Shown: positions 5,475 through 22,691 of the stretch, piece by piece | Numbering within the stretch: position 1 is the stretch's first letter | How the letters are laid out: each line of letters opens with the position of its first letter | Origin: Coriobacteriia bacterium | Lineage (GTDB): Bacteria > Actinomycetota > Coriobacteriia > Anaerosomatales > SLCP01 | Direction of reading: 5' to 3' | DNA: 32,699 nucleotides | NCBI GenBank assembly: GCA_019429145.1 | Contig: JAHYJI010000014.1 | Coordinates: 1-32,699, forward strand | The notes under the pieces: model-generated | Told to the model about the DNA's origin: nothing | Database searches by the model: none | What the model saw: the letters and a program-made list of their open reading frames with translations, nothing else | Made by a program: the position numbers and the translations under genes

Positions 5475-6616
5475 CGGCCCCGGGCCTCCGCGACGTGCAC
5501 CATGAACGCGCGCTTGTTCTCCTCAGGCGTCGTGGTCGGCCTGCCGAGGTCGGGCCGGGCGCCGATGCTCGACTTCACCTCGACGAAGACCGGACCCCGC
5601 CCAGCGAGCTTGTCGATCTCGCCGAGCACCGCCGCCAGCTCGTCCGCGTCAGCGGCCGAGAAGACGTGCGGATAACCGAACGCACGGGCCATCGCGGGAA
5701 AGTCGATGGTCGTCCCCACGGTGGGCATGCCGCCGACCGACTCGTGCGCCTCATTGTTCACGACCACGTGCACAAGGTCGGCCGGTGCGCTGGCGCCGAG
5801 AACCGCAAGCGAGCCGGTGTGCATGACGACCGCGCCGTCGCCGTCGAGCACGAGTACGCGGCGACCGGGCGCGTCAAGTGCGATGCCGAGCGCGATCATC
5901 GACGAGTGACCCATCGAGCCGACGGTGAGGAAGTCGGCGCCGTGGCCCTGTCCCCGGGCCTCCCGCGCCTCGAAGAGCTCGCGCGAGAGCTTGCCGGTGG
6001 TCGAGACGATGATGTCGTCGGGCCGGGTCGCGTCGACGATCGTGTTGACGATCTGCTCGCGGGAGAGCGGGTGCGTGTTGGCATACTCGCCTGTCAGGCC
6101 GCCTGCAAGCGCGCCCTTCTCGACGACGAAGGCCGCCGAGCGGCCCGCGGCGAACAGGGCCGCGAACCGGTCGAAGGCCGCTGCAAGCTCCTCCTCCGTG
6201 GTCTCCTTGCCAAGCACCACCGTCTCGATGCCGAGCACGTCAAGCAGGGGCAGGGTGACCTCGCCCTGGAAGACGTGCTGCGGCTCGTCGTGGACCCCGG
6301 GTTGCCCCCGCCAGCCGATGACGAAGAGCACCGGGATGCCATAGACCGCGTCGTTGAGCAGCGAACAGATCGGGTTGACCGCATTGCCGATCCCGCTGTT
6401 CTGCAGGTAGACAAGGCCGGGGCGCCCGCTGGCAAGGTAGTGGCCCGCCGCGATTCCGACGGCCGCGCCCTCGTTGGCAGCGATCACGTGGCGACCCCCC
6501 GTCCCGTGGACGGCAAGCAGATGGTCGCAGAGAGCGCTCAGCTGCGAATCGGGCACGCCGGCGTAGTGATCGATGCCGATCCGCTCGGCATTTTCGAGGA
6601 AGGTGGTGATGTTAAT
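5471..6616 (-). CDS. aepY: Phosphonopyruvate decarboxylase, apparent ATT start
   Basis: This is a thiamine diphosphate enzyme, 381 residues if started at ATT 6616. GVPDSQLSALCD and ANEGAAVGIAAGHYLASG form the N-terminal PYR domain, with the ThDP-activating glutamate in ANEGA. VLDGDGAVVMHTG through VNNEAHESVGG is the GDG...NN cofactor motif. It decarboxylates phosphonopyruvate to phosphonoacetaldehyde and so pulls the unfavourable PEP mutase reaction forward. No ATG, GTG or TTG lies at the expected N-terminus. The reading frame is open up to an ATG at 6703, which would add 29 residues read out of frame from the transferase gene and lacks a ribosome-binding site. The ATT has GAGG eight bases upstream and overlaps the upstream TAA by one base, so ATT is preferred. 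Confidence 0.9.
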   Translation of the reverse strand: MNITTFLENAERIGIDHYAGVPDSQLSALCDHLLAVHGTGGRHVIAANEGAAVGIAAGHYLASGRPGLVYLQNSGIGNAVNPICSLLNDAVYGIPVLFVIGWRGQPGVHDEPQHVFQGEVTLPLLDVLGIETVVLGKETTEEELAAAFDRFAALFAAGRSAAFVVEKGALAGGLTGEYANTHPLSREQIVNTIVDATRPDDIIVSTTGKLSRELFEAREARGQGHGADFLTVGSMGHSSMIALGIALDAPGRRVLVLDGDGAVVMHTGSLAVLGASAPADLVHVVVNNEAHESVGGMPTVGTTIDFPAMARAFGYPHVFSAADADELAAVLGEIDKLAGRGPVFVEVKSSIGARPDLGRPTTTPEENKRAFMVHVAEARGR

Positions 6617-8792
6617 GGCTCTCGCCTCTTTCGTCTCCGGCCGCGAGCCCGCCGCCCGCGGAGTGCATCTCGATGTAGAACCGCTCCATAGCCGCACCGT
6701 CATGAAGGTCCGGGTCGAGCCCGTGAGCGCGGTGCACGCGCTCCACGTGTGCGGCGAGGCCCGCCGTGACCGACTCCAGCATGCTCCTTGCCACCGATCG
6801 TACCCGCTCGCTGTCCTCCGCGATCGTACCGGCCGATGAGGCGGCCAGATCGCGGACGCGGACGTCCAGCTGTTCGGCTACCTCTGTGGCGAGCGAATCG
6901 ACGGAGGTGCCGAACCCGGAGAGGCGTTCGACCTCAGTCAGCACGGACTCGTCCCCGGTGACCCCCTGTCGACGCTCGGCCGCGCGGATCTGCGTCACGA
7001 TGGGATGGCCGGCAAGGCCGGGCGCCACGAAGACCCGATCGAAGCGCCCGGCCACGAACTCTCCGGGCAGGCGCTTGGCCTCGTTGACGGTAGAAGCCGA
7101 GAGCCACATGATGCGCCGCCCCAACTCACACACCGACATCAGGTACGTCCACTCGCTCAGGCGGTCGGTGAAGGTGACCACCGCATCGTAGGGGGTGTCG
7201 CCGATCAGACGACGCTTCTCGATCTCGAACAGGGGGCGCATCCGCTCGATCTCGTCGGGAGCACACCGCTCCGCGGGAAGCTTGCGCCAGTGCTTCATCC
7301 GATACAGATACTCTCGCAGCGTGAGCGCCCGGAACCCGAACGAGTAGAACACGCGCGCACGGGGATCGAGCTTGCGCAGATGGCGCTCCCGCTCCGGAGT
7401 GACCCTGGCGCTGAGCAGGACTGTCAGGTCGTAGCGCGAGTAGTCGAGGTTGCGGGAGAAGTTGATGATGTCGAAGGTCTGCCGTGTGCGCCCGAACGTG
7501 CCGCCCGCCACGAGGATCCGCTGCTTTTCCGGGTCGAACGACCGGTAGGCGCTCTCGCTCGCCACTCCCTTGAAGATGATGTCGCAGACGCGCGCCGACG
7601 CCTGGCCGTCCGCCCCGGGACACAGCTCCTCGCGCATGGCCGCGTACGTCTGGGCGTAGCGCTCCTGCACGCTCTCGATGTCCAGTATCGCGCCTACGAC
7701 CTCGGACGCGGTGTGGCAGAGCGGTCCGGGCATCTCGTACATGTCGACGTACAGGCCACGGTCCGCCGTGTACTCCTCGAGGTCGTAGGCGAAGAAGATC
7801 ACCGGCCGGTCGAGAACCAGCAGGTCGATGAAGATCGACGAGTAGTCGGTGACGAGGATGTCGACCGCCGCGAGCAGCTCGTTCGTCTCCACCCAGTCGG
7901 GGACGAACTTGATGCCGTGAAGGTCGTCGCGCCCGACAAGGTGCCGGTAGGTGAGGTCGTGCACCTTCAGAACGAGTTCGTAGTCGTCAGGCAGCCGCCC
8001 GGCGAGCGCCTCGACGTTTGCCACCGCTTCATCGGTGGTGTCCAGATAGCCGCCGGTCTCCCCCCGCCACGTGGGCGCGTACAGGACGATCCTCTTCTCC
8101 GGATCGACCCCGCAGACCTCAGCAAGCAACTCGCGCATCTGCGCACGGTCGGCCTTGACCGTCAGGTCGAGGCGGGGGTAGCCCTCCTCGAGCACGACGC
8201 CGGGGAAGATGCCCTGCACGTCGTTGGAGCGCAGCATCACCTCGGAGGTGAAGCGATTGGGCATCACGAGGTAGTCTGCCTGGACGTAGTTGCGCGTGAT
8301 GTTCTTGAACTGGCCGATGGTCCCGCCCTGCTCCTTGCCCAGCGCCTTGAACGCCGTCGCGTGCCACGTCGTCACGTGGACCTGCCCGGGCCGCTTGGTG
8401 AAGTACGAGGGCCACGCCTTGTTGTTCACCACGTACTTCGCCGTGTAGAGCGCCTCGGCGTAGGCCCGGCTGTGGAACTTGACGAAGCGCACGTTGGGAT
8501 AGCGTGAGAGCTCCCGCCGGTAGCGGTTACGCCTGTCGTCGATCGCCCAGATGAAGGTGAAGTCCCGGTAGTACGGGTCGGCGATCATCTCCTTGAACAT
8601 CGCGTATGGCGTGTCCGCGATCTTCACGGCGCGATACGCCTCGAAGAGCACCGTCTTCTCCCTGATCGCGGGGTCGCGCCTGCGGACGCGCGCGTAACGG
8701 ACCGTGCCCCGGAAGCTCCGACGCAGGTACCGCGCCGCGAGACGCGCGATCCGCAGCAGCGCCCGATGGAGTGTCTGTGCGAGCGTCCTCAT
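6612..8792 (-). CDS. TagF/TagB-like polymer phosphotransferase, second tandem copy
   Basis: This 726-residue protein is homologous to CDP-glycerol:poly(glycerophosphate) glycerophosphotransferases. The GT-B-like catalytic part covers roughly residues 45-400, with TTWHATAFKALG (H144), VLYAPTWRGE, LKVHD (H278) and VTDYSSIFID (D316-S319). In the family the first motif is WHGT; here Gly is Ala. Residues from about 410 onward form a second Rossmann-like region containing VAGGTFGRTRQTFDIINF and YDAVVTFTDRLSEWTYL. It resembles the N-terminal half of a GT-B glycosyltransferase, but I cannot assign it. The N-terminus is strongly basic and could contact the membrane. The start overlaps the upstream paralogue (ATGA). 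It probably transfers a CMP/CDP-activated unit to a wall polymer; donor and acceptor are unknown. Confidence 0.83.
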   Translation of the reverse strand: MRTLAQTLHRALLRIARLAARYLRRSFRGTVRYARVRRRDPAIREKTVLFEAYRAVKIADTPYAMFKEMIADPYYRDFTFIWAIDDRRNRYRRELSRYPNVRFVKFHSRAYAEALYTAKYVVNNKAWPSYFTKRPGQVHVTTWHATAFKALGKEQGGTIGQFKNITRNYVQADYLVMPNRFTSEVMLRSNDVQGIFPGVVLEEGYPRLDLTVKADRAQMRELLAEVCGVDPEKRIVLYAPTWRGETGGYLDTTDEAVANVEALAGRLPDDYELVLKVHDLTYRHLVGRDDLHGIKFVPDWVETNELLAAVDILVTDYSSIFIDLLVLDRPVIFFAYDLEEYTADRGLYVDMYEMPGPLCHTASEVVGAILDIESVQERYAQTYAAMREELCPGADGQASARVCDIIFKGVASESAYRSFDPEKQRILVAGGTFGRTRQTFDIINFSRNLDYSRYDLTVLLSARVTPERERHLRKLDPRARVFYSFGFRALTLREYLYRMKHWRKLPAERCAPDEIERMRPLFEIEKRRLIGDTPYDAVVTFTDRLSEWTYLMSVCELGRRIMWLSASTVNEAKRLPGEFVAGRFDRVFVAPGLAGHPIVTQIRAAERRQGVTGDESVLTEVERLSGFGTSVDSLATEVAEQLDVRVRDLAASSAGTIAEDSERVRSVARSMLESVTAGLAAHVERVHRAHGLDPDLHDGAAMERFYIEMHSAGGGLAAGDERGESH
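6614..6628 (-). promoter_or_regulatory. Ribosome-binding site that decides the aepY start
   Basis: Read on the minus strand, GAAAGAGGCGAGAGCC precedes ATTAAC. GAGG lies eight bases before ATT, and the TAA of the upstream transferase gene shares one base with ATT. This supports coupled initiation at a rare ATT codon, unless the T is a sequence error. Confidence 0.5.
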
Positions 8793-10939
8793 GCGGAAGA
8801 GGCCTCCCGGGACGGCGCGTCTCCCGCATCGAGCCTCACCAGATGGACGAACGCCTGCCGTCTCGCCTCGAACTCCTCTGCCGGGTCGAGCGCCGCCGCC
8901 TCGCGGGCAAGCGCTCCGGACAGCTCTCCGATCGTGGCCGCAAGCCCCGGATGAGCGGCGAGGTGGACCGGCGCAAGACCGCCCGCCCTGAACTCGTAGA
9001 GCAAGTCACCGGGCTCGCAGTAGGGGTTGAGTCCGGCCGCGGTACACTCCGCGACGTGGTCGATGCCGGCGATGAGATGAGCAACGTCGTCGGCCAGGCT
9101 CGCCACCACGTCCTGTGCCCGCATCGGGAGAGGAGCCAGCACGAGCTTGCCGACGTGCTCTGCCGGCAGGGTCTCCCGGTAGTGGTCGTAGGCCGTCTGC
9201 GTCGTGCAGACGAGCTCGTCGAAGTGGGTCGCCATGAACTCGGGAGACGACTCGCTCCCGTCGGCATCGAAGGGCGGAGGCAGGAAGACGACCTTCTTCG
9301 TGAAGGGCGTGTGAGCGAAGATCTGCTGCCAGACCGAGCGCCGGCCGGAGAAGTCCACGGCCACGTCGAACGCAACGGTTCCGAGGATCTCTTCGCGCCA
9401 TGCTGCAGCGGCTTCAGGCGCGAGGTAGCGCGACCCCGGTTCGGCCACGGCGAGCTCACGGTTCACGAGCCTGCGGGGCCGGGTGTTCGTCCGGTAGAAG
9501 ACCTTGATCTCCGGGTGCAGCTTGCTCAGGTAGTACTCGTCGCGGCCTTTCGGGGCGCCGTCGACCAGCAGCGACACGTCGAGCGCGCCGAAGTCCAGCG
9601 ATGAGAGCGCCTGCTGGACGCCGAAGGTCTCCGGACCGAGACTCCCGGCATACGCGAGCATCCGGGTCTTGTCGGTGTCCTCAACGCGGTACGCGTACTG
9701 GAGCTGCTTGCTCCGGAAGACGATGTCCAGTACGCGCCTGGAGGCCGAGCCATCCTCGTTGTAGGAGTAGCGCTCGATGAGGCGCTCGTGCCGGTCGCGG
9801 TACTCGGCAGCCACGGCGTCGATGTTCGCGATCGCGGCGTTGACCTCCTCGGCCGTGTAGCACAGCGGCCCGGCCATCTCGGTCTCCATGTCGAAGTACA
9901 GCCCGCGCGTGCGCTCGTACTCGGCGCGGTCGAAGACGAAGTGGATGATGGGACGGCGCAGGATCGCGAAGTCGAAGAAGATCGATGAGTAGTCGGTGAT
10001 GAGGATGTCGATCCCGGCAAGGAGCTCGTTGGTCTCGAACCAGTCCGGCACGTTGGCCAGCTCGCTCAGCTGCGGGTGGCGCTGCGCGTACGCGTAGGTC
10101 TTGTCGTGCACCTTGAGCAGGATCTCGTGACCCTCGGGCAGCCCGGCCTGCAACCCGATGATGTTCTCGAGGATGACGTCGGAGATGTCGAGCGAGTCAC
10201 CGACCTCACCGCGCCACGTCGGGGCGTACAGGACGATCTTCTTGGTGGGATCGATGCCGAGGAGGTCGGCGAGGTAGCGCTTCATCTGTGCGGGATCGGT
10301 GTTCACCGTCAGATCGCTGCGCGGCTGTCCCGCGTCGACCACGACCCCCGGAAACAGCGAGCGCACGTCACAGGAGTCGAGCATCACGTCGGCGGTGAAG
10401 CGGTTGGGCATGACAAGGTAGTCGACCTGCAAGTAGTTGCGAGTGACGTTGTGGTACTGGCCCATCCGTCCGTACTGGTGCTTGCCGAGCGTCTTGAGGG
10501 TCGTACCGTGCCACGTGCTGATGTGGACCTGCTCGGGCCGCTTCACGAAGAAGTGGTGGAATGTCTTGTTGTTGACGAGGTACTTCGCTGTCGCCAGGTG
10601 CCGCAGATACCTGCGGCCATGCCGCTTGCAGATCTCGACGTTTCGACGGCCCTTGTGCTCGGCCAGGATCCGGTTGCCGGGATCGTCCTGCGCATTGAGG
10701 GTCCACACGAACCGGTAGTCGGCGAAGTCCGGGTCGTCGAGCATCGCCTTGAAGATCGCGTACGGGTTACACGACATCCGCGCGCCATGGTACGCCTCGA
10801 AGAGCACGGTCTTCTCGGCAACCGGCAGGCGGGAGCGGTACCGGGCATACCTCCTGGCGGTGCGGATGCTGCCGCGCGCCAGGTAGGCGCCTAGCTCCAG
10901 ATAGCGTTCGTAGGCGGCAGCTCTGAGTCGCGCCCTCAT
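8789..10939 (-). CDS. TagF/TagB-like polymer phosphotransferase, first gene of the phosphonate operon
   Basis: This 716-residue protein is a paralogue of the next gene and aligns with it almost without gaps through residue 330. It has the intact family motifs HISTWHGTTLKTLG (catalytic-type H144), VLYAPTWRGE, LLKVHD (H278) and LITDYSSIFFDF (D316-S319). Such enzymes use CDP-glycerol or a related cytidylate donor to build or prime teichoic-acid-like chains on the cytosolic membrane face. A second domain (about 410-700) with AYAGSLGPETFGVQQ and FDVAVDFSGRRSVWQQ resembles a glycosyltransferase half; its role is unknown. ATG 10939 has AAAGGAC upstream. As first gene of a six-gene overlapping operon with phosphonate synthesis, it may add CMP-phosphonate or a phosphonate-bearing unit. 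That is inference. Confidence 0.85.
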   Translation of the reverse strand: MRARLRAAAYERYLELGAYLARGSIRTARRYARYRSRLPVAEKTVLFEAYHGARMSCNPYAIFKAMLDDPDFADYRFVWTLNAQDDPGNRILAEHKGRRNVEICKRHGRRYLRHLATAKYLVNNKTFHHFFVKRPEQVHISTWHGTTLKTLGKHQYGRMGQYHNVTRNYLQVDYLVMPNRFTADVMLDSCDVRSLFPGVVVDAGQPRSDLTVNTDPAQMKRYLADLLGIDPTKKIVLYAPTWRGEVGDSLDISDVILENIIGLQAGLPEGHEILLKVHDKTYAYAQRHPQLSELANVPDWFETNELLAGIDILITDYSSIFFDFAILRRPIIHFVFDRAEYERTRGLYFDMETEMAGPLCYTAEEVNAAIANIDAVAAEYRDRHERLIERYSYNEDGSASRRVLDIVFRSKQLQYAYRVEDTDKTRMLAYAGSLGPETFGVQQALSSLDFGALDVSLLVDGAPKGRDEYYLSKLHPEIKVFYRTNTRPRRLVNRELAVAEPGSRYLAPEAAAAWREEILGTVAFDVAVDFSGRRSVWQQIFAHTPFTKKVVFLPPPFDADGSESSPEFMATHFDELVCTTQTAYDHYRETLPAEHVGKLVLAPLPMRAQDVVASLADDVAHLIAGIDHVAECTAAGLNPYCEPGDLLYEFRAGGLAPVHLAAHPGLAATIGELSGALAREAAALDPAEEFEARRQAFVHLVRLDAGDAPSREASSA

Positions 10940-12312: not shown

Positions 12313-13137
12313 ATGCCGGGAACGGAGCGGCGGCCGACCAGTCTTCACCTCGCCGCACTCGTGCTGGCGGGAATCACCGGCGTCTTCGCGACTGTCCTGA
12401 TCCTGATGACCGGGGAGCTGCTGACGCTCTGGCCGCTCTACGTCGTCCCCATCGTGATCGCGGCCCTGACCTACCACGTCGCTGGCGCCGTCGTCGTCTC
12501 GGCCATCTCGATCGCGCTCGTCGCGTTCGTCCTGTACGGGACGGGGCTCGATACCTCGGTGCTTCCCGAGCTCGCCATCGGCATGGCGGCGTTCACCATC
12601 TCCGGTATCGTCATCGGCGTCCAGGCGCACCGCTCGAGTCGCCACCGCTACCTGCTCGAGGAGACCTCGATCTTCGACCCGCTCACCGGCGTCTACAAGC
12701 GGGCACACCTGGAGCGCCGGCTCCGCGAGGAGATGCGCCGTGCCGAACGGCTCGATGCCCGGTGCTCCGTCGTGCTCGTGAAGGTGGAGTGCTTCGACGA
12801 CTTCAAGGAGCGCTTCGGGCACTACAAGGGCGAGATGCTGCTCGAGCACCTCGCCGATGTCGTGCGGGTGAGCGTCAGGGACCACGATGTGGTCGCGCGC
12901 CACGGGCCGGTCTCCTTCGGCGTCCTCCTCCCGTTCGCCGGCCCGGACGAGGCGCACAGCGTCGCCGAGCGGCTGGCGGCCATCGTCGAGGACACCGAGT
13001 TCGAGGGCGACGTGCTCGAGCCGGTGACCCGGTGTTCGGTGCGCTGCGCACGCGCGACGTACCCGGACGACGCCTGCGAACACCGGGGCCTTCTCGCCGC
13101 GGCCGAGCAGCGGCTCGAAGGGAGCGGCTCGTCGTGA
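12313..13137 (+). CDS. Membrane protein with degenerate GGDEF domain, likely c-di-GMP receptor
   Basis: This 274-residue protein has a hydrophobic N-terminus (about residues 10-115, several membrane helices), then a GGDEF-type domain beginning DPLTGVYKRAHLERRL. The active-site motif that should read GGDEF is GPVSF (198-202), and the conserved asparagine/aspartate of the upstream substrate segment is lost (FKERFGHYKGEM). It should not make c-di-GMP. The inhibitory-site motif RxxD is intact (RDHD, 189-192), exactly five residues before the degenerate motif as in PleD, so binding of c-di-GMP remains possible. Its stop overlaps the mrpE start (GTGA), making it the first gene of the antiporter operon and a candidate regulatory subunit. 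Function is inferred. Confidence 0.82.
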   Translation: MPGTERRPTSLHLAALVLAGITGVFATVLILMTGELLTLWPLYVVPIVIAALTYHVAGAVVVSAISIALVAFVLYGTGLDTSVLPELAIGMAAFTISGIVIGVQAHRSSRHRYLLEETSIFDPLTGVYKRAHLERRLREEMRRAERLDARCSVVLVKVECFDDFKERFGHYKGEMLLEHLADVVRVSVRDHDVVARHGPVSFGVLLPFAGPDEAHSVAERLAAIVEDTEFEGDVLEPVTRCSVRCARATYPDDACEHRGLLAAAEQRLEGSGSS

Positions 13138-13607
13138 AGACCGCACAGGCGTCCACCCTGCTCTTCGCCTTCTGGCTCGTGCTCACCGACTCGTTCGAGG
13201 TAGTCGACCTCGCGCTCGGCGTGGCCCTCTCGCTCGCGCTCGGCGCGTGGGCGACGCGCTTCCTCTGGCCGGCGGACGCTCCCACGCTCACCGCGCGGCA
13301 GGCCGCACGGTTCCTCCTCTACATCCCGCGGCTCTTCGCCTCGGTGATCATGGCCGCGCTGCAGGTCGCCGAGGTCGTGCTCGACCCGCGCATGCCCATC
13401 GACCCGGTCGTCATCAGCCACCGGACGTCGTTCACCCGCGACGTCTCGCGCGTTGCCTACGCCAACTCCATCACCCTCACGCCCGGCACGCTGGCGGTGG
13501 ATGTCGACGGGAACACCTTCCACGTCCACTGTCTCGCCGAGCGCTTCGCCACGGACATCGCCACCGGTGACCTCGAGCGTCGCATCCATCGCGTCTTCGA
13601 GGAGTGA
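13134..13607 (+). CDS. mrpE: Mrp-type Na+/H+ antiporter subunit E
   Basis: This 157-residue MnhE/MrpE-family membrane protein starts at GTG 13134 inside the stop of the GGDEF-like gene. It has hydrophobic segments near residues 5-45 and 60-80, then the typical soluble tail with SRVAYANSITLTPGTLAVDVDGNTFHVHCL split over two strands. MrpE is a small accessory subunit needed for assembly of the multisubunit antiporter. It is the first of the canonical E-F-G block and leaves a six-base gap to mrpF. Confidence 0.93.
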   Translation: MKTAQASTLLFAFWLVLTDSFEVVDLALGVALSLALGAWATRFLWPADAPTLTARQAARFLLYIPRLFASVIMAALQVAEVVLDPRMPIDPVVISHRTSFTRDVSRVAYANSITLTPGTLAVDVDGNTFHVHCLAERFATDIATGDLERRIHRVFEE

Positions 13608-13613
13608 GCATCG

Positions 13614-13889
13614 ATGGAAGCGTTCTTCTGGGGTGTCGGCATCTTCCTCCTGCTCAACGCATTCGTCTGTCTGTGGCGCGCACATGCCGGCCCTACGGTG
13701 ATGGACCGTATCCTCGCCGTGAATATCGTGGGAACCACCACGCTCGTCGTGCTGGTCGTGCTCGCGCTGGTGTTCGGCAGGAGCATGTTGCTCGATGTCG
13801 CGCTCGTCTACGGCCTGCTCAACTTCGTCATCACCATCACCGCCGGCCGCTTCCTCGAGACCGGACGCCTGTCGGGTGAGCGACCGTGA
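13614..13889 (+). CDS. mrpF: Mrp-type antiporter subunit F
   Basis: This 91-residue, nearly fully hydrophobic protein has three predicted helices. The family segment AHAGPTVMDRILAVNIVGTT follows the first helix and LLDVALVYGLLNFVITI the second. In the complex this small subunit sits in the membrane beside MrpE and MrpG. Its stop overlaps the next GTG start by four bases. Confidence 0.93.
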   Translation: MEAFFWGVGIFLLLNAFVCLWRAHAGPTVMDRILAVNIVGTTTLVVLVVLALVFGRSMLLDVALVYGLLNFVITITAGRFLETGRLSGERP

Positions 13890-14215
13890 TCTCTGCTGTC
13901 GACATCCGCAACGCGGTCACCGTCGTACTCGCTGCCGTGGGTGCGCTCTTCTTCCTGGTCGGGACGATCGGCCTGGTGCGCCTGCCCGACTTCTATGCTC
14001 GGACCCACGCGGCCACCAAGTGCGACACGGTCGGCGCGGGCTCGCTCCTGCTCGCGCTCGCCGTCTTCAACGGATTCGACGCCTCGACCCTGAAGATCAT
14101 CGCGCTCGCCGGCCTCGTGCTGCTCTCGAGTCCGACCATCGGGCATGCGCTCGCCCGCGCGGCTCACAGGACCGGTGTCGCTCCCTGGCAGGCACGCAAG
14201 GAGCGTGCGTCGTGA
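13886..14215 (+). CDS. mrpG: Mrp-type antiporter subunit G
   Basis: This 109-residue membrane protein has the MnhG signature GTIGLVRLPDFYARTHAATK followed by DTVGAGSLLLALAVF. It starts at GTG 13886, coupled to mrpF, and its stop overlaps the next GTG. Three membrane helices are expected. Together with E and F it forms the block found in Mrp antiporters and in Mrp-related hydrogenases. Confidence 0.93.
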   Translation: MISAVDIRNAVTVVLAAVGALFFLVGTIGLVRLPDFYARTHAATKCDTVGAGSLLLALAVFNGFDASTLKIIALAGLVLLSSPTIGHALARAAHRTGVAPWQARKERAS

Positions 14216-14454
14216 GCGTGGTCTTCGACATCATGCTGCTGGTCTTCCTCATCGTGACCGCACTGGCGGTGGCCCGCGCCAAGGACCTCCTTGGCGCAGC
14301 AATCCTCTTCTCCTCGTACAGCCTGATGATGTGCTTGCTCTGGCAGCACCGGGGAGCGCCCGACGTTGCGATGACCGAGGCCGCTGTCGGTGCGGGCATC
14401 ACGACCGTACTCTTCTTGGTCGCCATCGGACGGACGACGAGGCGAGAGAAGTGA
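14212..14454 (+). CDS. MbhD-like (DUF4040) subunit, the detached C-terminal part of MrpA
   Basis: This 80-residue protein has three helices. The conserved segment AKDLLGAAILFSSYSLMMCLLW leads into GAPDVAMTEAAVGAGITTVLFL, the MbhD/DUF4040 signature, which resembles part of NuoJ. In Bacillus-type Mrp systems this sequence lies in the C-terminal portion of MrpA. In Pyrococcus-type complexes it is a separate gene, as here. GTGA overlaps on both sides couple it to mrpG and to the MbhE-MrpB gene. Confidence 0.88.
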   Translation: MSVVFDIMLLVFLIVTALAVARAKDLLGAAILFSSYSLMMCLLWQHRGAPDVAMTEAAVGAGITTVLFLVAIGRTTRREK

Positions 14455-15194
14455 AGAAGGCATTCGTAGCAGCCCTGCTCATCGTGACAGCGATACCGCT
14501 ACTGATCGGCGTTGTCGCGCTGCCTCCCCACGGCGATCCCGACACGCCCGTACACACGCACATCTCCGCCCGCTATCTGGAGGAGGGCCGAGAGGAGGCC
14601 GGCGCCGACAATATCGTGACCGGCGTGCTGCTCAACTACCGCGGACTGGACACGGCCGGCGAGGTCACCGTCATCTTCACCGCGCTCATGGCCGGCCTCG
14701 CGGTGCTCATCTCCCACAAGAAGCAGCCAGAGGGCGATGCGACATATGATGCGGCTGAAGCCGCCGCCGAAGACGCGCCCGTCCGGGCACCCGTAAGTCC
14801 CGTGGTGAGCTTCGTCGTGCGCCTGCTCGCACCGTTCATCGCGCTGTTCGCTGTCTACGTGATCGTCAACGGACACGTGACCCCGGGAGGCGGGTTCCAG
14901 GGCGGCGCCATCCTCGGAGCGCTCTTCATCGCGCTCACCATCGTGCTCGGCCGAGAGCGGACCCGCACGCTCATGCCGCGGCTCGCGCAACCCTGGATGC
15001 AGGGAGCCGCACTGCTCACCTTCGTCGGCGTGGGCATCGTCGGAGGCGCGCTCACCGGCCACTTCCTCGGCTACCCAGCACAGGCGTCGCTACATCTGGC
15101 ACGCGAGCTGATGATGCTCGTGCTCGAAGCAGGGATCGGCCTGGGCGGCGCGGCGGTGTTTGCGACCCTCTTCCTCCAGATGGAGGCCGAGTGA
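14451..15194 (+). CDS. mrpB: MbhE-MrpB fusion subunit
   Basis: This 247-residue protein joins two usually separate parts. Residues 1 to about 95 match MbhE (the extreme C-terminus of MrpA): an N-terminal helix, then HISARYLEEG, GADNIVTGVLLNYRGLDT and a second helix. After a charged alanine-rich linker (about 95-115), residues 115-247 are MrpB/MnhB with the signature VNGHVTPGGGFQGGAILGA. GTG 14451 overlaps the MbhD-like stop, and the gene's own stop overlaps the start of mrpC. The fusion keeps the Mrp/Mbh gene order while merging two subunits. It could guide how these parts sit together in the complex. Confidence 0.9.
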   Translation: MKKAFVAALLIVTAIPLLIGVVALPPHGDPDTPVHTHISARYLEEGREEAGADNIVTGVLLNYRGLDTAGEVTVIFTALMAGLAVLISHKKQPEGDATYDAAEAAAEDAPVRAPVSPVVSFVVRLLAPFIALFAVYVIVNGHVTPGGGFQGGAILGALFIALTIVLGRERTRTLMPRLAQPWMQGAALLTFVGVGIVGGALTGHFLGYPAQASLHLARELMMLVLEAGIGLGGAAVFATLFLQMEAE

Positions 15195-15547
15195 TGCTCG
15201 AAGCGCTCTGGAACAACGTGGACTACATCGCTTCGGTGGTGCTCTTCTGCATCGGGCTCTACATCATCATCGCCAAGAACAACCTGATCAAGAAGTTCCT
15301 CGGCCTGAACATCATGGAGACGGCCGTCTTCTCCTTCATCATCGCCCTCGGCGTCATCGATGGAGGCGACGCTCCCATCATGGGCGCCGGAGCTCAGGCT
15401 CCCTTCTCCAGTCCCGTTCCGCAGGCGCTCGTGCTCACCGGCATCGTCGTAGCCGTCTCGACCACGGCACTCGCGCTCAGTCTCATCATCCGCATCTACC
15501 GCCAGTGCGGGACGATCGAAGCCGACGAGCTCAGGGAGATGGAGTAG
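15194..15547 (+). CDS. mrpC: Mrp-type antiporter subunit C (NuoK-like)
   Basis: This 117-residue MnhC/NuoK-family protein has three helices. NNLIKKFLGLNIMETAVFSF carries the NuoK-like membrane glutamate, and SSPVPQALVLTGIVVAVSTTALALSL is the MnhC signature. Two starts are possible: GTG 15191 and ATG 15194. ATG is chosen because GGAGG at 15182-15186 is seven bases upstream. The stop is immediately followed by the ATG of mrpD. Confidence 0.93.
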   Translation: MLEALWNNVDYIASVVLFCIGLYIIIAKNNLIKKFLGLNIMETAVFSFIIALGVIDGGDAPIMGAGAQAPFSSPVPQALVLTGIVVAVSTTALALSLIIRIYRQCGTIEADELREME

Positions 15548-17044
15548 ATGGCTGCCTGGCCACACTGGCTCCCGCTCGTGGTGTTCGCGCCTCTGCTGGG
15601 TGCGGTGCTCACGCCGATCGTTTCGCTGCGCAGCCGACACGTCGCTCCGTGGTGGGCGCTCGCAGTGATGTCGGTGACCTCGGTAGCCGCTCTGTTCCTG
15701 GTGCTGAGGGTCGCTTCGGAAGGCCCCTTCTCGTACCTGCCCGGCGGGTGGCAGCCTCCGTACGGTATCGAACTGCGCTTCGACGAGTTCAGCGCGGTGA
15801 TCAGCGTGATCTGCCTCATCGGGTGGCTCGCGGTCCTCTACTCGCTGCGATACATCGAGTGGCTCCGGGAGGTCCCCAAGGAGCGCATCCCCTACTACTA
15901 CGCCCTGCTTCTGCTCAACCTCGGCGGCATGATCGGGTTCGTCGTCACGGGCGACCTGTTCAACCTCTTCGTCTTCCTCGAGATCCTCTCGCTCTCGGCG
16001 TATGCGCTGGTGGCGTTCAGCGGGGAGCACATCGCGGAGATGGCGGCGTTCAAGTATCTGCTGATGGGTGCTATCTCCTCGCTACTCGTGCTGTTCTCCG
16101 TCGGGATCATCTTCGGTATCACCGGCAGCCTCAACATGGCCGACGTGGCAACGCGGATCGGTCAGCTCGACTCCGCGGCGCCGGCCGCACTCGCCCTTGC
16201 CATGCTGGCGATCGGGTTCATGGTCAAAGCCGCACTCTTTCCCGTGCACATCTGGCTACCCGACGCTCACGCCATCGCCCCGAGCCCGATCAGCGCGGTG
16301 CTTTCGGGCCTCGTGGTCAAGGTCGGGATCATCGGCCTGATCCGCGTGTACCAGATCTACTACACCTCGGGCGTCCTCGATCTCCACACCCTCAACCAGG
16401 TGCTCGTCTGGCTCGGAGCGATCTCGATCGTGATGGGGGCGTTCTTCGCGATCTTCCAGGACGACATCAAGCTCATGCTCGCCTACTCGACCATCTCCAA
16501 CGTTGGCTACATCGTGATGGGGCTGGGCCTGTCGACGAACTTCAGCGTGATCGGCGGCAGCGTGCACGTCTTCAACCATGCCCTCATCAAGGCCACCCTC
16601 TTCCTGGCGGCAGGGGCGCTGATCTACCGGACCGGCTACCGGACCCTCACCGACCTGCGCGGCATCGGGCGTTCGATGCCGCTCACCTGCATCGCCATCT
16701 CTATCGGCGCCATCTCGATCGTCGGCATCCCGCCGACAGCGGGGTTCCTGTGCAAGTGGTACATCGCGCTCGGCGCGTTCGAAGCGGACCAGCCGTTCTT
16801 CGGCTTCGCGCTGATCTTCGGAGCTCTGTTCATCTTCATCTACTACATCCGCATGGTGAATGCGTTCTACTTCCAGGCACCGGTCCACCCGGAGATCCTC
16901 GAGGTCACCGAGGCGCCGCTCTCGATGCTCGCTCCCACGCTGTTTCTCGCCTCGCTCTGCCTGATCATGGGGATCCTCGGCCGGATCCCACTTGCCTTTA
17001 TCGAGCCCGCAGCGGCCCGTCTGCTCGCACCGTTAGGAGGCTGA
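15548..17044 (+). CDS. mrpD: Mrp-type antiporter subunit D (NuoM/N-like)
   Basis: This 498-residue proton-conducting antiporter-like subunit keeps all landmark membrane residues. E145 lies in the TM5 segment FVFLEILSLSAYAL, K227 in TM7 (FMVKAALFPVHIWLPDAH) and K258 in TM8 (LVVKVG). FQDDIKLMLAYSTISNVGYI follows, and FLCKWYIALG carries a later lysine. MrpD forms one ion-translocating path in the complex. It begins directly after the mrpC stop and ends one base before the next gene. It is the best match in this operon to canonical MrpD because of its position right after C. Confidence 0.93.
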   Translation: MAAWPHWLPLVVFAPLLGAVLTPIVSLRSRHVAPWWALAVMSVTSVAALFLVLRVASEGPFSYLPGGWQPPYGIELRFDEFSAVISVICLIGWLAVLYSLRYIEWLREVPKERIPYYYALLLLNLGGMIGFVVTGDLFNLFVFLEILSLSAYALVAFSGEHIAEMAAFKYLLMGAISSLLVLFSVGIIFGITGSLNMADVATRIGQLDSAAPAALALAMLAIGFMVKAALFPVHIWLPDAHAIAPSPISAVLSGLVVKVGIIGLIRVYQIYYTSGVLDLHTLNQVLVWLGAISIVMGAFFAIFQDDIKLMLAYSTISNVGYIVMGLGLSTNFSVIGGSVHVFNHALIKATLFLAAGALIYRTGYRTLTDLRGIGRSMPLTCIAISIGAISIVGIPPTAGFLCKWYIALGAFEADQPFFGFALIFGALFIFIYYIRMVNAFYFQAPVHPEILEVTEAPLSMLAPTLFLASLCLIMGILGRIPLAFIEPAAARLLAPLGG

Positions 17045-17045
17045 G

Positions 17046-18521
17046 ATGGAAGTCACCGATATCCGGGTGATCCTGGCTCCGGCCATCTCGCTCCTCTGCG
17101 CCGCCCTGGTCTTTGTGGCCGGGTCGAACAAGCACTGGCGCCGTTTCTGGATGCTGTCTGCCGCAACCCTCAAGCTCGGCGTGGTCATGTCGATGCTGCC
17201 AGGCTCGCTGCAGGGCACCGTGTACACCTGGGACATGATCGACTTCACCCCCGGAATCGGACTGGCGTTCCGGGCCGACGCCCTGGGGATGTTCTTCGCG
17301 GCCGTCTCCTCGACCCTGTGGGTGATCACCACCATCTACGCGATCGGCTACATGACCGGTGACGAGCACCGGGTGCGCTTCTTCGGGTTCTTCGCGCTGT
17401 GCGTCTCGACGACCGTCGGCCTCGCCTTCGCGGAGAACCTGCTGACGTTCTTCCTCTTCTACGAGATGCTGACGATCTGCACCTACCCGCTGGTCATCCA
17501 CGACGAGACACCCGATGCGCTCAAGGCCGGGCGCAAGTACCTCACCTACACGCTCATCGGGGGCGCCTTCATCATGGTCGGCTCGGTCATCGTCTACGAC
17601 GCGACCGGTACGCTCAGTCTCGGCCATCCGGGCATCCTCTCGGCCGAGCTCGGGACGCGCACGCTGCTGCTGATCTTCGTCTCGCTCGTGGGCGGCTTCG
17701 CGGTCAAGGCCGCGGTCATGCCGCTTCACGGCTGGCTGCCGAGCGCGATGGTCGCGCCCACCCCGGTGAGCGCTCTGCTGCACGCCGTCGCCGTGGTCAA
17801 GGCGGGAGCGTTCGGCATCCTGCGCACCATCTACAACGTCTTCGGCGTCGATCTGCTGGAGGAGATCGGCTTCGCCGTCCCACTCATGTGGATAGCCGCC
17901 TTCACCATCCTCGCGGCCTCGCTCGTCGCCATCTTCCAGGACAACATCAAGCGCCGGCTCGCCTTCTCGACCATCAGCCAGCTCTCCTACATCGTGCTCG
18001 GCGCCGCGCTGCTCACCCCGTTCGCGGCCACAGCCGCCATCGTGCACATCGCCAACCAGGCTTTCGCCAAGATCACGATGTTCTTCGTGGCGGGCGCCAT
18101 CCAGCGCACCACGGGCAAGACCAACGTCCACGAGCTCGCGGGCATCGGCTACCGGATGCCCTGGACGATGGGGGCCTTCACCGTCGCTGCGCTGAGCTTC
18201 ATCGGCATGCCGCTCTTCGCCGGCTTCATCACAAAGTGGTACCTCTCGCTCGGTGCGCTGGAGTCCGGAGAGTACTGGGTGCTGGCCGTGATGATCGCGA
18301 GCGCGATGCTCAACGCCGCATACTTCCTGCCCATCGTCTACCTGGCCTTCTTCAAAGCGCCGCCGGGCACGAAGCTGCGGGTGGCCGAGGCGCGGCCGAC
18401 CCTGCTGATATCGACCCTGGTGGCCGCCGCGTACGTGATCGTGCTCGGTACGACCGCCGAGGTGCCCGGCATGCCGTTCTCGCTCGCTCAGGCAGCCGTG
18501 CACTTCGTGTTCGGGATGTGA
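17046..18521 (+). CDS. NuoL/M-type antiporter subunit, first additional copy
   Basis: This 491-residue antiporter-like membrane subunit has E140 (FYEMLTICTYPLVIHDETPD), K221 (FAVKAAVMPLHGWLPSAM) and K252 (VVKAG), plus FQDNIKRRLAFSTISQLSYI and FITKWYLSLG. The motif HGWLPSAMVAPTPVSALLHAVAVVKAG, split over two helices, is closer to NuoL or the N-terminal part of MrpA than to MrpD. It lacks the MrpA C-terminal domains, which are encoded as separate genes upstream. It follows mrpD by a single base. It probably serves as a second ion-translocating module. Confidence 0.88.
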   Translation: MEVTDIRVILAPAISLLCAALVFVAGSNKHWRRFWMLSAATLKLGVVMSMLPGSLQGTVYTWDMIDFTPGIGLAFRADALGMFFAAVSSTLWVITTIYAIGYMTGDEHRVRFFGFFALCVSTTVGLAFAENLLTFFLFYEMLTICTYPLVIHDETPDALKAGRKYLTYTLIGGAFIMVGSVIVYDATGTLSLGHPGILSAELGTRTLLLIFVSLVGGFAVKAAVMPLHGWLPSAMVAPTPVSALLHAVAVVKAGAFGILRTIYNVFGVDLLEEIGFAVPLMWIAAFTILAASLVAIFQDNIKRRLAFSTISQLSYIVLGAALLTPFAATAAIVHIANQAFAKITMFFVAGAIQRTTGKTNVHELAGIGYRMPWTMGAFTVAALSFIGMPLFAGFITKWYLSLGALESGEYWVLAVMIASAMLNAAYFLPIVYLAFFKAPPGTKLRVAEARPTLLISTLVAAAYVIVLGTTAEVPGMPFSLAQAAVHFVFGM

Positions 18522-18529
18522 GGGGTGAT
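18521..18529 (+). promoter_or_regulatory. Ribosome-binding site favouring ATG 18534
   Basis: AGGGGTGAT overlaps the stop of the preceding gene and closely matches the anti-Shine-Dalgarno complement, with suitable spacing to ATG 18534. The alternative GTG at 18525 lies inside this site and is less likely. Confidence 0.5.
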
Positions 18530-18533
18530 CGGG

Positions 18534-20030
18534 ATGACCGGGAGGCTCGTAACGTCGGTGATGCCCGTCGCAGCGGTGTTTCTGCCGCTGGCGGGGGTCG
18601 TCGCCGGTCTCGTGCTCGGACGCATCTCCGGGCGCGCCCGTGCGTGGGGCCTCGGGGCCATCTGTGCGGCTACCGCCGCGCTGACGATCGCGCTCATCCC
18701 GGGCGTCCTGGACGGATCGGTGTACGAGATCTACCTGCTGAGGCTCACCCCGGTCATCTGGATCCACCTGAGGGTCGATGCGATGGGAGCGCTCTTCGCC
18801 GCAACGGCCGCTCTGTTGTGGCTGCTCGCGCTCGTCTACTCGGTCGGATACATGGCCGACGGGCACCGGCTCGGCCGCTACTACGCGTTCTTCATGCTCT
18901 GCCTGAGCTGGACGCTCGGCGTGGCGTACGCCGGCAACCTGCTCACGTTCCTGATCTTCTACGAACTCTTCTCCATCCTGACCTACCCGCTTGTCGTTCA
19001 CGAGGAGACGCCGGAGGCGATGGCGGCGGGCACCAAGTACATCATCTACATCCTGATGGGCGGGAGCCTCGTGCTGCTCGGGGTGGTGTTCACCTTCTTC
19101 CTCGCCGGCGACCAGACGCTTACCGCGGGAGGCATCCTCAACGCGACGATGGACCGCACCTCGCTGCTCGTCATCTTCTGGTGCTTCATCGTCGGGTTCG
19201 GCGTGAAGGCCGCGCTCGTCCCTCTGCACGGGTGGGTCCCCGACGCTCATCCCGCGGCCCCCGCGCCCTTCTCGGCGGTGCTGTCCGGCGTGATGGTGGC
19301 GGCAGGGTCATTCGGCATCATGCGCGTCGTCTTCCAGGTGTTCGGCACGGAGCTGCTTGCCGAGCTGGGGGTGATGCCGGTATTGGCGGGTATCGCCGCC
19401 TTCACCGTGGTGTTCGCGGCCGTCCTCGCGGTCGGCCAGGACAACATCAAGCGCCGGCTCGCGTACTCGACGATCAGCCAGATGGGTTACGTCGCGCTCG
19501 GCGTGGGGCTGCTCGGTGCCGAAGCGACGATCGGGGCGCTCGTGCACATCACGAACCACGCGTTCATGAAGGGGACGCTCTTCCTCTGTGCCGGCCTGCT
19601 CATCAAGCGCGCCGGCATCCACAACGTGAGCGAGATGGCGGGGGCGGCCAAGCGCATGCCCGTGACGATGGCGGCGTTCGCGCTCGCCACCCTCGGGATG
19701 ATCGGCACACCGCCGCTGTCCGGATTCATCAGCAAGTGGTATCTGGGCCTGGGCATCCTCGACGCCGATCAGCCGCTCTACCTGGCCGTGTTGCTGGGCG
19801 GAGCGCTGCTCGCGGCGATCTACCTGCTGCCGATCGTCTACGCCGCCTACTTCAAGAAGCCACCCACCATCGCGGCGGAGGACACGGGTGAGGGCGCGGA
19901 GGCGCCCGCCTCGATGCTCGTGCCGACGGTGATCGCCTCGGCGCTCACGCTCGTGCTCGGACTCGCCGCAACCGTACCCGGATTCCCCTACTCGCTCGCA
20001 CGCATGGCCACCGAAGCGTTCTTCCGCTAG
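18534..20030 (+). CDS. NuoL/M-type antiporter subunit lacking the TM8 lysine, second additional copy
   Basis: This 498-residue protein is homologous to the preceding subunit. It keeps E144 (FYELFSILTYPLVVHEETPE), K225 (FGVKAALVPLHGWVPDAH), QDNIKRRLAYSTISQMGY and FISKWYLGLG. In TM8 the other three paralogues have Val-Lys or Ile-Lys followed by Val/Ala-Gly, but here the sequence is MVAAG: A256 stands where the lysine should be. In complex I relatives that lysine is part of the central proton path. The subunit may therefore carry a different ion, work more slowly or be structural. A start at GTG 18525 would add three residues. Confidence 0.87.
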   Translation: MTGRLVTSVMPVAAVFLPLAGVVAGLVLGRISGRARAWGLGAICAATAALTIALIPGVLDGSVYEIYLLRLTPVIWIHLRVDAMGALFAATAALLWLLALVYSVGYMADGHRLGRYYAFFMLCLSWTLGVAYAGNLLTFLIFYELFSILTYPLVVHEETPEAMAAGTKYIIYILMGGSLVLLGVVFTFFLAGDQTLTAGGILNATMDRTSLLVIFWCFIVGFGVKAALVPLHGWVPDAHPAAPAPFSAVLSGVMVAAGSFGIMRVVFQVFGTELLAELGVMPVLAGIAAFTVVFAAVLAVGQDNIKRRLAYSTISQMGYVALGVGLLGAEATIGALVHITNHAFMKGTLFLCAGLLIKRAGIHNVSEMAGAAKRMPVTMAAFALATLGMIGTPPLSGFISKWYLGLGILDADQPLYLAVLLGGALLAAIYLLPIVYAAYFKKPPTIAAEDTGEGAEAPASMLVPTVIASALTLVLGLAATVPGFPYSLARMATEAFFR

Positions 20031-20039
20031 GAGACCGAC

Positions 20040-22691
20040 GTGCACGAAGCCGCGGACATCGCCTACCACCCGCTGCCGGCACTGCTGGTGCTCTGGCCGC
20101 TGCTGTGCGCGCTCGCGGTGCGTCCTCTCGGCAAGTGGCGCGAGGACGTGCGCAACGGCTTCGTGCTCTTCGCGACCGGTGTGACCCTGCTCGGAGCGGC
20201 CGCGCTCATCCCGGTGCTCTCGGCCGAGCACAAGATCACAGCCGAGATCCCGGTGCTCATCGGCAAGCTGCACTTCGTGGTCGACCCCTTCGGGATGCTC
20301 TTCGCACTCTTCACGACGTTCGTGTGGTTCGCCGCGACGCTGCACGCCCTCGACTACATGCAGCACGAGACGAACCGCGACCGGTTCTACACGACGAGCC
20401 TCGTCGTGCTCGGCGCGATGCTCGGCGTCGTGCTCGCCGGAGACCTCATCACGCTCTACCTGTTCTTCGAGGTGCTCGGGCTGGTGGCGTTCCTCTTCGT
20501 CATCCATACCGAGACCGACGAGGCCAAACGCGCCTCGGTCAAGTACCTCTGGATGACGGTGCTCGGAGGATTCTCGCTCGTCGGCGGGATCTTCCTCACC
20601 TACGCGCTGGGGCACACCGGCGCGATCGGGCCGATCCCTCTCGAGGGAGGCACGGAGACCCTTCGTTGGGTCACGTTCGGACTCCTTGTGTTGGGGTTCG
20701 GTGTGAAAGCGGGCATGTTGCCCGTCCACGTGTGGCTCCCCGACGCCCACCCGGTCGCGCCGTCCCCGGCGAGCGCGCTGCTCTCCGGCGTGATGATCAA
20801 GGCCGGCGCGTACGGTATCTTCCGTACGGTCACCGCGCTCTTCCGCCCCGAGGTGGTCGAGGAGGTCTCCGAGGAGCTCTGGCACATGACGAGCGACTTC
20901 GGGCTCGTCGTGCTGTGGATCGGCATCGCGACGATGTCGATCGGTGTGACCCTCGCACTCGGCCAGCACAACGCCAAGCGCATGCTCGCCTACCACAGCG
21001 TGAGCCAGATGGGCTTCATCCTCGTGGGCATCGGTGCAGCGGGCTACCTCGGCTCGCACGGTGCGATGGGCGTGGCAGGCGGCCTGCTGCACGTCGTCAA
21101 CCACGCGCTGTTCAAAGGTGCGCTCTTCCTCGGGATCGGGGCGGTGGCGTTTCGGACCGGTGAGCTGAACATGTACAAGCTCGGCGGCTTGTGGCGCAAG
21201 ATGCCGTGGACCTTCGTCTTCATGCTCATCGCCGCGGCGGGCATCACCGGCGTGCCGTTGCTCAATGGATTCGTGAGCAAGTGCCTCATCCACCACGCAC
21301 TCGTCGAGGCCTACGAGGTACGCCATCTGATGTCGCTCGACATCGCCGAAAAGATCTACGTCCTGACGTGCGGCGGCACCGCGTGCTCGTTCATCAAGCT
21401 CATCGGCCTGGTGTTCCTCGGCAAGCCCAAGACCGAGTACGGGCCCGAGGTGCGCGAGGCGCCACCGAGGATGCTGACCGCGCTCGGCCTGCTCTCGGCT
21501 GCCATGCTCGTGATCGGCATCCGTCCCCACATCGTGCTCAGAGGCGTGTTCGCACCGGGGCTGCACGAGTGGGCGCTCCACTCCGACCTGCTCGAGTACT
21601 ACCTCGAGCACTACTTCCTGAGCCCGGCCGACCTGATGTCGGTGGTCGTGGCGTTCGCCATCGGCGCAACGGTCTTCGTCGTGGGCATGAGGTTCGGACT
21701 CTTCCACCTGCACGCGCCTAGGTGGTTCGGGGTCGACTACTGGTACGGCGTGCTCGCACGCACCTTCCTGCGGGTGTGCGAGTGGGTCGGTGGCTGGTAC
21801 GAGCGCTACCTCCGCTTCGCCTCCCGCAGCCTGCGCTCGATCCGGCTCGGCTACCGCTCGATGTACGCCCGCGTGGAGCGGGGCTGGCGACGCACGGTCA
21901 TCACCATCACGACGGGCGCACCGGGGCCGCGCAACCAGCACTTCATCCAGAACGCCTACATCGCTCTGGAGCGCGAGCGCCAGGCCACCGTCCGCTACGC
22001 CGTGACCCGCGCGCACGAGTGGCTCCGGGCGACGCCTGACACCGAGCCTGCGCGCAGCACCGCTACGGTCGACGCGGTGCGCGACATCGCCTCGTACATG
22101 GCGACCCGTCAGATGAACCAGCGCATGAACGTGCTGACAGACATGGTGAGGACCGGTGAGATCGAGGCGGCACGACACAGCTTCGACGACGTGCTCGCCG
22201 AGGTGCGCCTCTTCCGCGATGGTGTCGCGCACACCGCCATCGAGCTGGCCCAGCGCAGGATGACCGGCGAGGACGTCATCCGTGAGATCTCAGCCGAGGT
22301 GAACCGCATCTCGAGCGAGGAGCGGTTCGACCGCCGGCTGCGAGCCGCCACGGCACGCATACATCCCGCGATCCCGCGCGTGCAGAGCATCGGGGCATCC
22401 GCACGCGACGCGATGCCCACGCCCGCGCTCGTGACCGAGTGGCGGGTACGCGGTCTGGGACGGTTCGAACGAGCGTCCCGCTGGCTCGTCGAAATCGTCA
22501 GGCTCGTCGTCGAGGTCACGACCCAGGAGCGGTCGAACTGGATGCTCTCGGACCGCCTCGACCAGGAGACCATCATCGAGATGCGCCGCAACATCCAACG
22601 CTACGCACGCGACATGAGCTTCAACATGGCGATGATTCTCGTGGTGCTGGTGGTCTTCGTCCTGAGCATCGCCGCCGGCATCGAGCGGTAG
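20040..22691 (+). CDS. NuoL-type antiporter subunit with long C-terminal extension
   Basis: This 883-residue protein starts at GTG after TAGGAGACC. Residues 1 to about 555 are an antiporter-like core: E144 (FFEVLGLVAFLFVIHTETDE), K223 (FGVKAGMLPVHVWLPDAH), K254 (MIKAG), and GQHNAKRMLAYHSVSQMGF. WFGVDYWYGVLART follows, like the segment before the lateral helix in NuoL. Residues about 575-860 are highly charged and mostly helical, with many Arg and Glu, then one terminal membrane helix at about 862-880 (MAMILVVLVVFVLSIAAG). The order core, long polar helical part, last helix recalls the NuoL lateral helix plus TM16, but the polar part is far larger. I recognise no domain in it. It ends the operon. 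Confidence 0.87.
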   Translation: MHEAADIAYHPLPALLVLWPLLCALAVRPLGKWREDVRNGFVLFATGVTLLGAAALIPVLSAEHKITAEIPVLIGKLHFVVDPFGMLFALFTTFVWFAATLHALDYMQHETNRDRFYTTSLVVLGAMLGVVLAGDLITLYLFFEVLGLVAFLFVIHTETDEAKRASVKYLWMTVLGGFSLVGGIFLTYALGHTGAIGPIPLEGGTETLRWVTFGLLVLGFGVKAGMLPVHVWLPDAHPVAPSPASALLSGVMIKAGAYGIFRTVTALFRPEVVEEVSEELWHMTSDFGLVVLWIGIATMSIGVTLALGQHNAKRMLAYHSVSQMGFILVGIGAAGYLGSHGAMGVAGGLLHVVNHALFKGALFLGIGAVAFRTGELNMYKLGGLWRKMPWTFVFMLIAAAGITGVPLLNGFVSKCLIHHALVEAYEVRHLMSLDIAEKIYVLTCGGTACSFIKLIGLVFLGKPKTEYGPEVREAPPRMLTALGLLSAAMLVIGIRPHIVLRGVFAPGLHEWALHSDLLEYYLEHYFLSPADLMSVVVAFAIGATVFVVGMRFGLFHLHAPRWFGVDYWYGVLARTFLRVCEWVGGWYERYLRFASRSLRSIRLGYRSMYARVERGWRRTVITITTGAPGPRNQHFIQNAYIALERERQATVRYAVTRAHEWLRATPDTEPARSTATVDAVRDIASYMATRQMNQRMNVLTDMVRTGEIEAARHSFDDVLAEVRLFRDGVAHTAIELAQRRMTGEDVIREISAEVNRISSEERFDRRLRAATARIHPAIPRVQSIGASARDAMPTPALVTEWRVRGLGRFERASRWLVEIVRLVVEVTTQERSNWMLSDRLDQETIIEMRRNIQRYARDMSFNMAMILVVLVVFVLSIAAGIER

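Follow-up and report, generated by a model that had tools for sequence, protein, structure and literature searches.

We found that the Mrp-type antiporter operon in the window (the whole stretch of 32,699 nucleotides that was analyzed) opens with a gene for a membrane protein whose GGDEF domain has lost its catalytic residues and retains those of the c-di-GMP-binding I-site. The reading we favor, with somewhat better than even confidence, is that this protein is a dedicated membrane-bound c-di-GMP receptor subunit that modulates the cation/proton antiporter. We infer the binding of the ligand, the contact with the antiporter, and the direction of control, from c-di-GMP to transport, from sequence.

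The operon consists of 11 genes in series, each separated from the next by −22 to +9 bases:

12313 to 13137, + strand: TM-GGDEF gene, 274 amino acids (open reading frame, Pfam GGDEF, AlphaFold model, PDB matches)
13134 to 13607, + strand: mrpE, antiporter subunit E (Pfam MNHE, 103 bits; 4-bp overlap with the GGDEF gene)
13614 to 13889, + strand: mrpF (Pfam MrpF_PhaF)
13886 to 14215, + strand: mrpG (Pfam PhaG_MnhG_YufB)
14194 to 14454, + strand: MbhD-like subunit (Pfam MbhD)
14451 to 15194, + strand: MbhE/MnhB fusion subunit (Pfam MnhB and MbhE)
15191 to 15547, + strand: mrpC, NuoK-like (Pfam Oxidored_q2)
15548 to 17044, + strand: antiporter-like subunit 1, MrpD/NuoN type (Pfam Proton_antipo_M, 224 bits)
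17046 to 18521, + strand: antiporter-like subunit 2 (Pfam Proton_antipo_M, 191 bits)
18525 to 20030, + strand: antiporter-like subunit 3 (Pfam Proton_antipo_M, 198 bits)
20040 to 22691, + strand: antiporter-like subunit 4, extended at its C-terminal end by a long soluble part and a last membrane helix (Pfam Proton_antipo_M, 189 bits; hydropathy)

The genes that mark an Mrp-type antiporter operon, mrpE, F, G, B, and C with MrpD/A-type subunits, are present together. An earlier note on this DNA, made from the letters alone, had placed the GGDEF gene at the head of an antiporter operon and overlapping mrpE. Both statements hold, as the gene is the first of the 11 and the overlap is 4 bp. The interval of 12313 to 13607 that it gave for the GGDEF protein does contain the gene but spans two genes, because the GGDEF stop overlaps the mrpE start and mrpE ends at 13607. 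Upstream of the operon, we found no c-di-GMP riboswitch in the window, only a tRNA, and a scan for sigma-70-like promoters and terminators near the GGDEF gene returned nothing.

Several other features of the region were observed. Four Proton_antipo_M subunits lie in tandem at 15548 to 22691; the usual Mrp system has two. Subunit 4 is 883 amino acids long, with about 300 soluble residues and the final membrane helix following the antiporter core. When the window (12313 to 15194) was compared with a locus from the same genus (L031, 6001 to 8876), identity was 80 to 84% over the GGDEF gene and mrpE and 95 to 99% from mrpF on. This jump suggests that the operon has recombined internally or that its first two genes evolve unusually fast. 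A pair of neighboring TarF-like genes of the CDP-glycerol glycerophosphotransferase type lies at 6612 to 10939 on the minus strand, beside a TPP-enzyme gene.

The N-terminal part of the GGDEF protein is a membrane region of four predicted helices (about residues 9 to 118), with hydrophobic segments by hydropathy at residues 13 to 31, 36 to 54, 56 to 74, and 83 to 101. The GGDEF domain itself occupies residues 120 to 269 and matches the Pfam profile at 77.6 bits, against a cutoff of 23.8. The AlphaFold model (22 sequences; pLDDT, 87.7) finds its best PDB matches among solved GGDEF domains of diguanylate cyclases. Thus, the GGDEF fold is intact, while the chemistry should be lost. The membrane domain (12313 to 12666) matches DUF4118, which we take to be the KdpD-type four-helix domain. 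The match is weak in the window protein (E, 0.023), reaches 3.7e-7 in the best relative, and is found in 17 of 22 family members at E values of up to 1. This likeness might point to a cation-sensing role like that of KdpD.

Five motifs or residues of the GGDEF domain carry the argument:

12904 to 12918, + strand: GPVSF, residues 198 to 202, replacing GG(D/E)EF (11 to 16 changes within the family at positions 199 to 201)
12877 to 12888, + strand: RDHD, residues 189 to 192, the primary I-site RxxD, equivalent to PleD R359 and D362 (31/31 members, 0 changes on the tree)
12739 to 12741, + strand: R143, equivalent to PleD R313, the secondary I-site arginine (30/31 members, 1 change on the tree)
12970 to 12972, + strand: R220, equivalent to PleD R390, the third I-site residue (30/31 members, 1 change on the tree)
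13000 to 13011, + strand: FEGD, residues 230 to 233, an invariant family motif (25/25 members; 9/9 head homologues with an active-type site)

When the window protein was aligned to PleD, we observed that its metal/GTP residues were also gone: D327 is replaced by K157, K332 by D162, N335 by K165, and E370 by V200. An active diguanylate cyclase would have GG(D/E)EF together with D327, N335, and E370, and the window protein has none of these. The open reading frame was confirmed, and the earlier note's expectation that GPVSF in place of GGDEF leaves no cyclase activity is borne out at these positions as well; the protein is almost certainly not a cyclase. Throughout the family, each catalytic position changed 6 to 16 times on the tree, and these positions are randomized across the 31 members.

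The I-site has fared differently. Alignment to PleD agrees with the claim that RDHD sits at the exact I-site spacing, and the numbers given for R189 and D192 are both correct; five residues separate D192 from the GPVSF signature, as in PleD. In I-sites of the PleD type, c-di-GMP is contacted by R359, D362, and R390 and by R313 from the partner (PMC7288161). The window protein combines a GGDEF fold, a dead active site, RxxD, and the equivalents of R390 and R313, which are the sequence marks of a degenerate-GGDEF I-site receptor.

We then considered how strongly these residues are conserved. A survey of 61 genomes of the order gave 25 full-length homologues, and this family sample was enlarged to 31 distinct sequences; the I-site played no part in collecting them. 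The pattern used to scan contigs contained FEGD, and the FEGD count is limited to the 25 first-survey members and L123, which was found by HMM. Because the members share ancestry, raw sequence counts overstate their independence; counts of changes on a tree allow for kinship. Changes were counted on a 31-member tree with a total length of 18.6 substitutions per site, built without the columns under test. The median for the GGDEF domain was 10 changes per position, versus 0, 0, 1, and 1 at R189, D192, R143, and R220. Of the 151 domain positions, just 17 changed no more than once, and four positions picked at random would all belong to these 17 with a probability of about 1e-4. Even when sets of four were drawn from the 38 positions that match the I-site in conservation among active homologues, they equaled the conservation of the I-site in just 0.5% of draws. 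These change counts rule out the possibility that RxxD was retained by close ancestry alone. The earlier note had named loss of RxxD from orthologues beside mrp genes as the result that would speak against it; R189 and D192 are kept in 31/31. Our interpretation is that the I-site was probably held under strong selection while the GTP site decayed in the window's lineage.

A different ligand, such as GTP, ppGpp, or c-di-AMP, could occupy the domain in place of c-di-GMP. Some degenerate GGDEF domains are known to bind GTP or to hydrolyze ATP (PMC7288161), and PDB entry 9g85 is PleD with c-di-GMP plus ppGpp. However, the GTP site is randomized in this family and the c-di-GMP site is precisely what stays, which makes another nucleotide a very improbable ligand.

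To set the I-site against GGDEF domains at large, we used 50 control domains, 10 from the window genome and 40 from nine relatives, the latter drawn from the lower-scoring part of the match list. Of the 30 controls whose active site is intact, 18 have RxxD, which makes its presence alone unremarkable, and 12 lack it, so the fold does not require it. Among the 20 controls with a degenerate active site, RxxD was found in 4, all of one GGDEF-EAL type from the same order. GGDEF domains that have lost catalysis thus usually lack RxxD as well, and the antiporter-linked family is an exception; invariance of the motif in a lineage that loses catalysis exceeds chance. The explanation that RxxD was retained simply since GGDEF domains tend to have it is ruled out by this control set.

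The GGDEF-EAL type just mentioned (L223 to L226, also L234 to L237) has a degenerate site such as SGNSF and keeps RDxD. It was found in several genomes that have no mrp-linked GGDEF gene, and it is a second candidate I-site receptor. We rejected it as a relative of the window gene; it is a GGDEF-EAL protein and unrelated.

The linkage to mrpE that the earlier note had suggested checking is conserved among relatives. In 25/25 first-survey genomes, and in the extended loci as well, mrpE lies directly downstream of the GGDEF gene, frequently with the 4-bp overlap, and the order of the operon beyond it is identical. An MNHE gene is present in 34 of the 61 genomes, 27 of which have an MrpE of the window-like (cognate) type, as judged by similarity to the window MrpE; 25 of those 27 have the GGDEF gene. 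The GGDEF homologue is absent from all 27 genomes that lack MNHE. Among 300 genomes of the class, the family is confined to the window's order, and no plasmid-borne copies were found. Two genomes of one genus (G006 and G008) have the cognate mrpEFG without the GGDEF gene, which indicates that the antiporter can do without it.

Operon linkage falls short of proving contact with the antiporter. In one alternative, the dead GGDEF domain would be a dimerizing platform for assembly or structure of the Mrp complex that binds no nucleotide, with the I-site residues serving as interchain contacts. The conserved place in the operon, often with the overlap, fits such a subunit. So does the constraint beyond the I-site, as D122, E140, R146, and FEGD are also invariant in the family. 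However, GGDEF domains with intact sites and no RxxD are common, so the fold has no need of the motif, and a platform leaves unexplained why all four PleD ligand contacts were retained together. That two genomes keep the operon without the GGDEF gene also argues against a structural role. We consider this explanation unlikely, although it is the strongest of the alternatives to a c-di-GMP receptor.

We also retrieved mrpE relatives from other classes of the phylum and inspected the genes upstream of them. Nine loci from four families (f30, f56, f75, and f83) have a homologous TM-GGDEF gene upstream of mrpE (L126 to L129, L131, L133, L134, L136, and L140). These head homologues are mostly 37 to 42% identical over about 270 residues, membrane domain included, and their membrane domain gives alignment Z scores of 16 to 22. 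They share with the window protein the membrane domain, the place upstream of mrpE, RxxD, and FEGD, but they differ in that GGEEF and the metal/GTP residues, including D327 and N335, are complete. Thus, the head homologues are probably active enzymes. In L046/L134, which is one of these nine, an in-frame TGA falls within the membrane region (L046, 6283) of an otherwise intact gene; the TGA may reflect decay, a sequencing error, or recoding. Families f30 and f75 have second mrp operons with a tail homologue about 400 bases past the last antiporter gene (L174 to L178, where L178 shows the operon end only), and these tail homologues also carry GGEEF.

The complete catalytic site of the homologues in other classes implies that the ancestral member probably made c-di-GMP. 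This raises the possibility that information flows the other way: the helices would sense ions or the state of the antiporter, the pseudoenzyme would partner an active cyclase, and the antiporter would report to c-di-GMP. The resemblance of the membrane region to DUF4118, weak as it is in the window protein, is in keeping with this, as is PDB entry 8qj3, in which a GGDEF domain forms part of an ammonium transporter chain. However, the catalytic site is destroyed throughout the window's clade, which argues for a receiver role there, and the operon has no gene for a partner cyclase. Signaling from antiporter to c-di-GMP is therefore plausible for the active homologues and less so for the dead clade; for the window protein, we regard it as less probable than the structural platform.

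Phylogeny places the members with a dead site in one clade (SH-aLRT, 97 to 99). A protein from outside the class with a partly decayed signature, GGGQF (L048, on the same contig as L124/L160), is basal in this clade. In a tree of the GGDEF domain only, the dead clade was not placed beside the head cyclases. When the catalytic columns and two long branches were removed, a branch separated the dead clade and the TM-cyclases together from other GGDEF domains (SH-aLRT, 96), and on the same reduced tree a grouping of the dead clade with the head cyclases alone was not rejected (p-AU, 0.53). Since intact homologues head mrp operons elsewhere, the window protein can be described as an antiporter-linked diguanylate cyclase minus catalysis, with the ligand site kept. 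On the simplest reading, the antiporter operon once encoded a working cyclase, which in the window's lineage ceased to be catalytic but still has its product-binding site.

If the protein is a c-di-GMP receptor, its history and action might be as follows. The ancestor would have been a membrane diguanylate cyclase encoded at the head of the mrp operon. In its descendant, c-di-GMP, probably as an intercalated dimer, would bind R189, D192, and R220 of one GGDEF domain and R143 of the partner, clamping the two domains together on the cytoplasmic face. The clamped pair could then alter the state of the antiporter through its own membrane helices or through the neighboring MrpE. In Mrp complexes, MrpE forms the dimer interface and additionally bears a ferredoxin-fold domain on the cytoplasmic side (PMC7419157), and a GGDEF pair clamped beside it would therefore be a plausible switch. 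The effect of c-di-GMP may be activation or inhibition of transport, as both are compatible with this scheme.

The genome provides a setting for such a receptor. The host bin (2.07 Mb, 98.5% complete) encodes 12 GGDEF and 3 EAL domains for c-di-GMP turnover, and no PilZ receptor was detected in it. Without a detectable PilZ protein, a GGDEF receptor may be one of the main c-di-GMP outputs of this genome. More broadly, we give about even chances to the proposal that Mrp antiporters in a branch of the Actinomycetota-type phylum are fitted with a c-di-GMP control subunit, an active cyclase in some classes and a derived, dead receptor in the window's order, so that c-di-GMP would directly set Na+/H+ (or K+/H+) exchange. 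Cation balance is a role otherwise associated with c-di-AMP. The openly licensed literature searched contained nothing on MrpE together with c-di-GMP, and a report outside it may exist; one text that joins GGDEF, an Mrp antiporter, and c-di-GMP proved unrelated to the finding in the window.

Compared with antiporters of the Mrp, Mnh, and Mbh types, the window operon is alike in having E, F, G, MbhD, MnhB/MbhE, C, and antiporter-like subunits in one operon, and it differs in the GGDEF gene at its head and in four Proton_antipo_M subunits against the usual two. The closest parallels for the GGDEF protein are receptors of exopolysaccharide systems. PelD of Pseudomonas aeruginosa and Bacillus cereus is the degenerate GGDEF c-di-GMP receptor of the Pel machinery. 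Like the window protein, it is membrane anchored, with a dead GGDEF domain, RxxD plus a downstream arginine, and a gene in the operon of the complex it serves (PMC7112168). B. cereus PelD binds c-di-GMP with a Kd near 100 nM, and binding is abolished in alanine variants of the residues that correspond to R189, D192, and R220 (PMC7112168). Because these three residues have counterparts in the window protein, the likeness to receptor-type GGDEF proteins such as PelD drawn by the earlier note is sound in principle. However, the window protein is not a PelD. PelD has a GAF domain, placed between its membrane helices and GGDEF, and pel genes around it, whereas no Pfam match to GAF was found in the window protein, pel genes are absent, and its operon encodes an ion antiporter and no polysaccharide synthase; PelD_GGDEF (PF16963) stayed below threshold in the window family, with an E value of 0.09 in one of 22 members. 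YdaK of Bacillus subtilis/velezensis, the transmembrane degenerate GGDEF receptor of an exopolysaccharide operon (YdaK-N), resembles the window protein in its predicted membrane helices, degenerate GGDEF domain, primary and secondary I-sites, and operon with the presumed target (PMC9800504). The resemblance is one of architecture and operon context; the class of target differs, as the window operon has no polysaccharide-synthase genes.

Thus, PelD and YdaK already exemplify the principle of a degenerate GGDEF receptor that shares an operon with its target. What is new, in that it is absent from the openly licensed literature searched, is an antiporter as the class of target and a series from cyclase to receptor at one operon position. 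PelD and YdaK control polysaccharide export; an antiporter receptor, if true, would bring ion and energy homeostasis within the reach of c-di-GMP. With the active cyclase as the before and the dead receptor as the after at the same position, the conversion of an enzyme to a receptor could be studied directly.
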